The notes beneath the pieces are model-generated. The model was not told where the DNA came from. It saw only the letters and a list, made by a program, of their open reading frames with translations, and did not search any database. Positions 2,646 through 3,896 of a stretch of DNA of 5,758 nucleotides are shown here, piece after piece. The translations under genes and the position numbers were made by a program. Every line of letters begins with the position of its first letter. The first letter of the stretch is position 1. Origin of the DNA: Thermoleophilia bacterium (GTDB lineage: Bacteria > Actinomycetota > Thermoleophilia > Gaiellales > Gaiellaceae); NCBI GenBank assembly GCA_029858755.1, contig JAOUEK010000151.1, forward strand, positions 1 through 5,758, written 5' to 3'.

Positions 2646-2691
2646 TGCCCCCGGCCGAAATCGAACCAGCGCACGCGGTTTAGGAAACCGC
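2646..2691 (-). repeat. Displaced 3' fragment of tRNA-Arg(CCT), candidate att site
   Basis: This is a truncated tRNA gene copy containing the anticodon stem-loop with CCT, the variable loop, the T arm, the acceptor 3' strand and the discriminator base. It differs from the intact gene only at 2658 (A for G at 3837), which turns a G-C pair of the T stem into a G-U pair. Similarity stops at 2691, and nothing to its right resembles a D arm or acceptor 5' strand, so it cannot make a tRNA. Confidence 0.85.
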
Positions 2692-2697
2692 CCAGCC

Positions 2698-2735
2698 GCC
2701 GAAAGTCCGACGCGCTTCCGCGACGTGCTTTCGGC
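2698..2735. repeat. 8-bp inverted repeat just inside the left tRNA fragment
   Basis: GCCGAAAG (2698-2705) and CTTTCGGC (2728-2735) are perfect inverted copies around a 22-base spacer, starting 7 bp inside the tRNA-fragment boundary. It could be an integrase or excisionase arm site, a terminator, or chance. The spacer shares TCCGCGACG (2717-2725) with the hairpin at 3701-3739. Confidence 0.35.
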
Positions 2736-3021
2736 AGAAGGGATCGGGGTAGACCGCAATGGCCCCGGCGAGAATCGCACGTTGCGGGGCGAGAAACGAG
2801 TCCTCGCGAGCCGTGACCAAAGTAGGGGGGTTTCCCGGTTGCGACCCCGGCGCGCTCGCTGCGACCCTCGTCGCATGCTGACGGATCCCTGGCACGCCTT
2901 CTCTGCCGCAGAGGTCGCACGACGAGGTCTCCGACGCCGGTGGCGGCGCTCTCTCGCGCCGCGAGCGGCAGGTCGAGACAACCGAGACGGTACGAGCGGT
3001 GCCGCATCCCACAACATCCAC

Positions 3022-3028
3022 GGAGGTG
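3022..3028 (+). promoter_or_regulatory. Strong ribosome binding site of the secreted-protein gene
   Basis: GGAGGTG lies 4-5 bases before the ATG at 3033. It is the best Shine-Dalgarno match in the window and fixes that start over an upstream in-frame ATG at 2940, which lacks one. Confidence 0.8.
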
Positions 3029-3032
3029 TCTC

Positions 3033-3689
3033 ATGACCTGGACCGACCGAGGCCATCGGGCGGCCTTCGCGGCGATCGGCATCGCGGTCGTCGCGCTCGG
3101 CATGTCCTTGACGGCAGGCGCGCAATCGACCGCGAAGAACCTCATCGTGAACGGCAACGCAGAGCAGGGAGCGGCGTCTCCCAACGGCTACGACGTCGTT
3201 CCGGAAGTTCCGGGGTGGAAGCGGCGGGGAGGCTTCACCGTTGTCGAGTACGGGGCGTCCGACTTTCCCGGCACCCAGACCAGCACCGCTGTCCATGGGG
3301 GCGCGAAGTTCTTCGCGGGCGGGCCTGGAAACGCGAGCTCGGCCGTCACCCAGACCATCTCCGTCGCCTCGCAGAAGCAGCTGATCGACTCCGGCAAGGC
3401 GAAAGGGACGCTCTCGGGATACCTCGGTGGATACGGCGGGCAGGACGACTCCTTGATCGCGACCGCCGTGTTCCTCGGTCAATCTGGCGCTCGGCTCGGC
3501 ACGATGCTCAAGCTCGGCCCGGTCGGCTCGGCGGCCCGCAAGCTCCAGACCGGGATGATCCGACAGACGGTCGCGGGCTCGATCCCGAAGGGAACACGGA
3601 CGATTCGCGTGACACTCAGCGCCAACAGGACGTCCGGTAGCTACAACGACGGCTACGCCGACAACTTGTCTCTGACGATCGGCCGATAG
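3033..3689 (+). CDS. Secreted beta-sandwich (galactose-binding-like) protein, function unknown
   Basis: This encodes 218 residues. Residues 1-30 form a Sec signal peptide: a charged start, a hydrophobic core AFAAIGIAVVALGMSL, and a likely cut after AGA (28-30). The mature protein opens with NLIVNGNAEQG (36-46) and ends with SYNDGYADNLSLTI (203-216). These opening and closing strands are typical of secreted jelly-roll or carbohydrate-binding-like domains, the 'NLlvNGdFE ... yvDNvsl' type. Between them are VPGWKRRGGFTVVEYG (59-74), GGAKFFAGGPGNASS (89-103) and LSGYLGGYGGQDDS (127-140). There is no catalytic signature, membrane anchor, PEP-CTERM or LPXTG tail, so release or non-covalent surface binding is likely; a glycan or cell-wall ligand is an inference. 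It is the only gene between the tRNA-derived repeats, with lower GC than its neighbours, which supports acquisition by transfer. A strong hairpin follows 12 bp after its stop. Family type is moderately sure; the ligand is unknown. Confidence 0.85.
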   Translation: MTWTDRGHRAAFAAIGIAVVALGMSLTAGAQSTAKNLIVNGNAEQGAASPNGYDVVPEVPGWKRRGGFTVVEYGASDFPGTQTSTAVHGGAKFFAGGPGNASSAVTQTISVASQKQLIDSGKAKGTLSGYLGGYGGQDDSLIATAVFLGQSGARLGTMLKLGPVGSAARKLQTGMIRQTVAGSIPKGTRTIRVTLSANRTSGSYNDGYADNLSLTIGR

Positions 3690-3700
3690 CCAGCGCGGGG

Positions 3701-3739
3701 TGCGCGTCGCGGGGACCGAGCAATGCTCCGCGACGCGCA
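3701..3739 (+). terminator. 12-bp perfect hairpin downstream of the secreted-protein gene
   Basis: TGCGCGTCGCGG (3701-3712) and CCGCGACGCGCA (3728-3739) are exact inverted complements around a 15-base loop, which itself holds a small GAGC-AAT-GCTC stem. It starts 12 bp after the TAG at 3687-3689, where a terminator is expected. No T-tract follows, which is common in high-GC genomes. It could also shield the gene from transcription coming through the oppositely oriented tRNA. Confidence 0.6.
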
Positions 3740-3824
3740 GCCGGGCCGCAAGCGTTGCCACCGTCATCCTCGGGCGGCCCGTGCCCGCTGCGAACGTCCC
3801 CTCGCCCGTCGGCAGCGCGGCCGA

Positions 3825-3870
3825 TGCCCCCGGCCGGAATCGAACCAGCGCACGCGGTTTAGGAAACCGC
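3825..3870 (-). repeat. tRNA-embedded copy of the 46-bp direct repeat
   Basis: This is the 3' part of the intact tRNA-Arg gene, matching 2646-2691 at 45 of 46 positions. If the cassette is an integrated element, this copy rebuilt the tRNA end at insertion, and recombination between the two copies would excise the intervening DNA as a circle of about 1.18 kb. Confidence 0.8.
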
Positions 3871-3896
3871 TGCTCTATCCACTGAGCTACGGGGGC
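3825..3896 (-). tRNA. tRNA-Arg (anticodon CCT)
   Basis: A complete 72-base cloverleaf can be folded by eye. It has a 7-bp acceptor stem GCCCCCG/CGGGGGC, TA, a D arm GCTC-AGTGGATA-GAGC, an anticodon arm GCGGT-TTCCTAA-ACCGC with CCT in the loop, a 4-base variable loop GTGC, a T arm GCTGG-TTCGATT-CCGGC (one G-U pair) and discriminator A. CCT reads the AGG arginine codon, rare in GC-rich genomes. The 3' CCA is not encoded. It lies 59 bp from the permease stop on the same strand and is probably transcribed on its own. Confidence 0.95.

Follow-up and report, generated by a model that had tools for sequence, protein, structure and literature searches.

The window analysed here, the whole stretch of DNA, is one complete contig of 5,758 bp (G000:C492) from a host assembly of 2.70 Mb in 564 contigs that is 80% complete. 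It contains one intact tRNA-Arg(CCT) gene, on the minus strand at 3825..3896 (ARAGORN; Rfam RF00005, 67.7 bits), which is the probable target of an insertion. Pairwise comparison revealed that the part of this gene at 3825..3870 (minus strand), corresponding to tRNA positions 27-72 and running from the anticodon stem through the discriminator base, recurs as a direct repeat at 2646..2691 (minus strand), where it forms a displaced tRNA-Arg 3' half, or distal core, that the site model described below recovers as a core-only match. The two copies, whose starts are separated by 1,179 bp, are identical at 45 of 46 bases, or 46 of 47 if positions 2645 and 3824 are added, and the sole mismatch within the 46 bases is an A at 2658 against a G at 3837. 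The near-identical, same-orientation repeat with these limits that the initial annotation had described is thus real. Comparison of both flanks found no likeness beyond the 46-47-base block on either side, and a local tandem duplication, which the initial annotation had named among the findings that would refute its reading, is rejected as the source of the second half because similarity stops at the repeat edges. Two further stretches (2437-2471 and 2760-2780) that by eye resembled decayed tRNA pieces scored 28 and 22; they were not counted, since 100 shuffles of a 1.4-kb stretch gave scores of up to 28 (95th percentile 23) and control stretches of relatives reached 31.

The interval between the cores (2692..3824) has a G+C content of 0.687, against 0.761 in the left flank and 0.726 in the right. 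Its single convincing gene is ORF218 (3033..3689, plus strand), which has no match in Pfam or NCBIfam and 229 homologues with e-values of 0.001 or better, the nearest non-identical ones being 81-89% identical. The AlphaFold model of the protein (mean pLDDT 88) consists of an N-terminal helix at residues 4-25, which we read as a predicted signal peptide of a secreted protein, followed by a β-sandwich. The best PDB matches of this model were Fbs1-type sugar-binding domains, with CBM4 and CBM16 modules ranked lower, and this jelly-roll fold suggests that ORF218 might bind carbohydrates. One named homologue of the protein (P0034) suggests a Gaiellaceae-like host. The gene is patchily distributed within the order, being found in 8 of 129 genomes including the host, with a best identity of 46% outside the host; it had no match in phages and two weak ones in plasmids (36% and 33% identity). 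None of eight loci of ORF218 relatives, taken with 1.5-kb flanks, contained a T-loop or tRNA of the tRNA-Arg(CCT) type. One distant relative (33%; L188, G003:C1:1449828-1451734) has the 3' end of a tRNA-Arg(TCT) gene some 1.2 kb away, with no displaced half within 20 kb. The stretch of the interval that adjoins the distal half (2692..3032) has no convincing gene, the minus-strand ORF at 2680-3021 having no Pfam match, and any surviving integrase arm sites would sit there.

Searches with the Phage_integrase profile (PF00589), with stops read through, drew no match in the window, in agreement with the earlier claim that no recombinase is encoded between the repeats. Three integrases and one excisionase-like (HTH_17) protein of relatives likewise had no significant match in the window, and no integrase remnant was found within the interval. 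In the whole assembly the same profile, again with stops read through, gave a single match, on contig C302, to a recombinase that is nearest to XerC/XerD in NCBIfam yet falls under their curated cut-offs; no phage-type integrase was thus detected in this 80%-complete assembly, and given this completeness an integrase could sit in the missing part. Among the matches listed, the host assembly held no further tRNA-Arg(CCT) cores, leaving one interval on a 5.8-kb contig.

To place this arrangement among relatives, a 42-base pattern of the tRNA 3' half, allowing up to three mismatches, was run against 103 genomes of the family, of which 25 matched, and none with the reversed pattern as control. A 180-position site model built from nine arm-plus-core sites was run against 129 genomes of the order and matched in at least 86 of them; as many of these matches are plain tRNA genes, only full-length matches were taken as arm sites. 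Loci were fetched from both genome searches and each core passing the mismatch filter was classified, giving 95 cores in 55 genomes; 49 of these are intact tRNA genes, and 46, from 26 genomes, are halves. These 95 cores are a chosen set rather than an unbiased census, biased in that sites lacking an integrase served to train the site model. Wherever an intact tRNA gene and a half share a contig, the half lies downstream on the same strand (16 of 16 pairs on 12 contigs, with none in the opposite orientation). In a control with 27 tRNA-Arg contexts, a same-strand downstream half scoring at least 62 was present in six, the window included, while upstream and opposite-strand stretches did not exceed 31 and the next downstream match scored 32; same-strand downstream 3' halves thus exceed chance. 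In those halves of relatives that were inspected base by base, the shared block as a rule begins in the anticodon loop (TTCCTAA) or immediately ahead of it and runs to the discriminator base, with a few eroded (for example in G020 and G005) and others eroded at the 3' end (G102, G112 and G097). In five cases an integrase lies 175-381 bp from the half. Within the host's family the tRNA-Arg(CCT) gene is a hotspot, and the initial reading of the repeat as a signature of site-specific integration is well supported by the starting point of these halves, their uniform placement and the five adjacent integrases.

Defining an interval as the stretch between consecutive cores on the same contig and strand, we obtained 24 closed intervals in 17 genomes, all of which were covered by the integrase search; PF00589 was absent from 18 of the intervals and present in six. 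Cores excluded by the filter include, among others, those of G020, whose tRNA is followed after 79 bp by a 33-base fragment, G051:C91, and G075, where an integrase is present. The interval in the window, at 1,179 bp, is the shortest of the 24. All 10 intervals shorter than 3.93 kb are integrase-less, against 8 of the 14 longer ones (Fisher p 0.024, with the size cut picked after the list was seen). The idea that the small size and missing integrase are exceptional is thus not borne out at this site. The six intervals with an integrase are those of G089 (3.9 kb), G101:C4 (8.4 and 5.8 kb), G090 (8.2 kb), G059 (15.4 kb) and G103 (37.8 kb), the match in the 5.8-kb interval containing one stop. The 8.4-kb element of G101 encodes an HNH protein, a C5 methylase, Vsr, an HTH_17 protein and an integrase adjoining the distal half, a layout as expected of an intact element. 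The interval integrases belong to at least three lineages: G059/G089, which together with those of G075 and G102 share 45-77% identity; G090/G101, at 49-50% identity; and G103. An integrase of a further lineage adjoins a half in G008.

Several additional features were noted around these cores. On contig C4 of G101 (105520-143222; L079, L258 and L259) a 38-kb stretch carries six successive cores on the same strand, one of them weak, and integrase matches occur in the first two intervals only, one of them with a stop. Elsewhere, conserved arm-plus-half units of about 150-200 bases are repeated 1.9-4.7 kb apart with no integrase (L204, G102:C7, 1677-3804; L205, G112:C312, 7594-15446; L206; L207), and the segments that they enclose encode proteins of secreted or signalling type. 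A small protein family beginning MIGEKVQQF, with members up to 84% identical, is found no more than 5 kb from tRNA-Arg cores in each of three genera (L075:11071-11460, L207:10487-10984 and L261:7143-7619), and zinc-ribbon adenylate-cyclase-like proteins recur near such cores in four genera.

We then made pairwise comparisons of the 200 bases that adjoin each half within the element, using a score cut of 33 set against a shuffle maximum of 32 in 1,035 pairs. Twenty sites were linked at a score of at least 33, and these were split by inspection into two arm families. The first comprises 12 sites from 7 genomes in 5 genera, most of which carry GTCTACC near -135/-124 and GGACTC near -98/-88 or -46. 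The second comprises 8 sites, plus that of G067 by motif, and is typified by ACTGGYGC or a repeat of CTGGYGC near -84/-72; ACTGGYGC also occurs downstream of intact tRNA genes, in 6 of 48 at +108 to +121. GTCTACC was present in 12 of 45 distal arms against a background of 1.6% per 200 bases, GGACTC in 11 of 45 against 4.0%, and ACTGGYGC in 8 of 45 against 0.95%, counts in which sites of one genome are not independent. Ten of the 12 GTCTACC hits are in register, those out of register being the window and G112:C312:21594. Copies of a motif that are spaced by 11-12 bases and flank a core to left and right are reminiscent of arm-type integrase sites, and the motif sets of the relatives are, from their sequence, candidate integrase arm sites. 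On the same contig and within 20 kb, none of the 12 sites of the first family has a phage-type PF00589 match, several of these contigs being short, and the G059 site of the second family lies inside an integrase-bearing interval. The element-side sequence of the window matches neither arm family. Its segment 2692-2841 contains GTCTACC at -68 and GGACTC at -117, both out of register for the first family, and TTCTCGCC twice, 21 bases apart; these occurrences are possibly due to chance.

The flanks of the window were also traced in the relatives. The CheR gene of the left flank has no match in six congeners and 31-43% matches in 10 other genomes (31 searched). A 74% relative of the ABC-2 permease is encoded in G003, some 80 kb away from the tRNA-Arg(CCT) gene of that genome. 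Given the absence of CheR from the congeners and the distance of the permease relative from the tRNA, no empty site can be read from these genes. A candidate empty site in G004 was rejected, as its 38-base match is out of register (offset 30 against 84). Among the matches listed for the site model, G001, G003, G004 and G006 have one match each, the intact tRNA, and G002 and G005 have none, with a 38-base fragment elsewhere in G005. With six congeners giving either an intact tRNA or no match, the displaced half is not common to the genus as sampled; the presence of the arrangement in all close relatives, which the initial annotation had named as part of what would refute its reading, was not encountered among these matches. 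Four core or arm-plus-core patterns matched no viral contig as a potential phage attP, and the sole hit of a fifth pattern (L281) was discarded, as it has no tRNA 3' half at that place, and in 13 kb of its sequence neither a tRNA nor a match to the integrases of this site.

Directly observed are the repeats, the missing integrase and the like layout at the same tRNA gene in relatives, some of them with an integrase. The reading that we favour, at a probability of roughly 0.7, is that the 1,179-bp interval is a non-autonomous remnant left by site-specific integration, the responsible tyrosine integrase being encoded elsewhere or since lost. An incoming element would have carried an attachment core that copied the tRNA from the anticodon stem-loop to the 3' end. 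Recombination of this core with the tRNA gene would let the element's copy rebuild the tRNA and displace the host's own 3' half to the far end of the insert. The element would then have lost its integrase, or might never have had one, leaving one gene for a predicted secreted protein between the cores. The insertion step and the loss of the integrase are inferred, as would be any present ability of the segment to move, and active mobilisation of the interval in trans is possible. A version of events in which the second half was copied locally by duplication, template switching or gene conversion, with no integrase involved, would fit the 45/46 near-identity if the copy were recent, but the shared block spans only 46-47 bases and ends at the usual attachment limits, and the 16 same-strand downstream pairs of the relatives, together with the integrases in several intervals, make it the least probable of the explanations considered. 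An assembly artefact joining two tRNA 3' ends from different places in one contig is scarcely more credible: the window makes up an entire contig in a fragmented assembly and repeats of this type do interrupt assemblies, one contig of G015 terminating within the tRNA, but the same layout is seen on 12 contigs, three of them longer than 90 kb (G078:C30, G101:C4 and G103:C28), and proteins identical to ORF218 are listed for contigs of up to 26 and 23 kb.

The alternative deserving most attention differs from the remnant reading in the history of the segment: the interval would be a minimal one-gene cassette that did not arise by deletion and continues to be mobilised in trans by the tRNA-Arg(CCT) integrase of another element. 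Favouring it are the 18 of 24 closed intervals that lack an integrase, the two arm families set at fixed distances before halves across genera, mostly with no integrase nearby, and the recurrence of cargo families near cores in different genera. Nevertheless, the arm of the window belongs to neither family, the host assembly has no phage-type integrase match, nothing demonstrates movement, and the set is biased through the training of its site model, so that we consider this alternative unlikely. Its extension to the whole hotspot is a more doubtful proposition still: the tRNA-Arg(CCT) gene would be the entry of an integron-like system in which tyrosine integrases acting in trans stack integrase-less cassettes, the window holding the smallest, one-gene cassette with an unrecognised arm type. 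In such a system each small cassette would end in a tRNA 3' half carrying an attachment arm of one among a small number of types, and the cassettes would follow one another behind the tRNA gene.

Under the remnant reading, the interval can be compared with several described systems. Cis-mobilizable elements (CIMEs), as defined in PMC5704250, arise by decay of an ICE or IME and by tandem accretion; they have no genes for integration or transfer, keep attL and attR, and move along with an incoming element after accretion. The interval is similar in lacking such genes, with ORF218, which is Pfam-negative, as its only gene, and in lying between two cores, which have no recognisable arm sites, and relatives have rows of such segments, some adjoining integrase-bearing elements. 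It differs in being far smaller (1.18 kb, one gene) and in showing no sign of an ICE or IME ancestor, the searches with integrases and the HTH_17 protein of relatives having been without significant match and no other remnant being seen. The interval would work like a cis-mobilizable element, by likeness rather than by class assignment. The nearest published parallel that we found is the Dehalococcoides ssrA arrays, for which PMC3146451 reports 15 islands without an integration module, a serine recombinase, a 20 bp repeat and crossover in the tmRNA T-loop. In both systems an RNA gene is followed by islands in series whose borders are copies of that gene's 3' end, and a conserved motif accompanies the repeat. 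Unlike those arrays, the present site is associated with tyrosine integrases that belong to several lineages, its core measures about 41-46 bases counted from the anticodon loop, and it has two sets of arm motifs.

Islander, according to its description in PMC4383910, likewise looks for an intact tRNA gene and a same-orientation fragment at the island ends around an anticodon-centred site, both of which are present in the window, but it requires an integrase gene inside, which the window lacks, and would therefore filter it out. Among its 3,919 islands are 125 tandems with at least two members and 4 with at least three; G101:C4 has six cores in a row, but an integrase match in only two of its intervals, one with a stop. 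Hitcher elements and integrase-less cassette arrays (CALINs) have also been described (PMC11389934); the rows in relatives are similar in consisting of mostly integrase-less segments with recombination sites, and differ in having a tRNA 3' half and arm-like motifs, apparently in place of attC sites, any action in trans being hypothetical here. A search of the open-access literature on integration in Gaiella and Thermoleophilia found nothing on this hotspot. As a single interval the window is ordinary in kind, being covered by known classes. It opens onto a hotspot across a bacterial family known mostly from metagenomes, in which most of the examined intervals are integrase-less. If the shared arms are functional, many genomes would hold non-autonomous cassettes that are missed by island finders requiring an integrase, and whether such segments are debris or are moved in trans becomes a testable question.

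Outside the interval, we noted that the endonuclease V match on the minus strand at 873-1767 begins at profile position 55, and that N-terminal-like sequence is discernible by eye in another frame, in an ORF with no Pfam match of its own, which points to a possible frameshift or assembly error in this region of the window.
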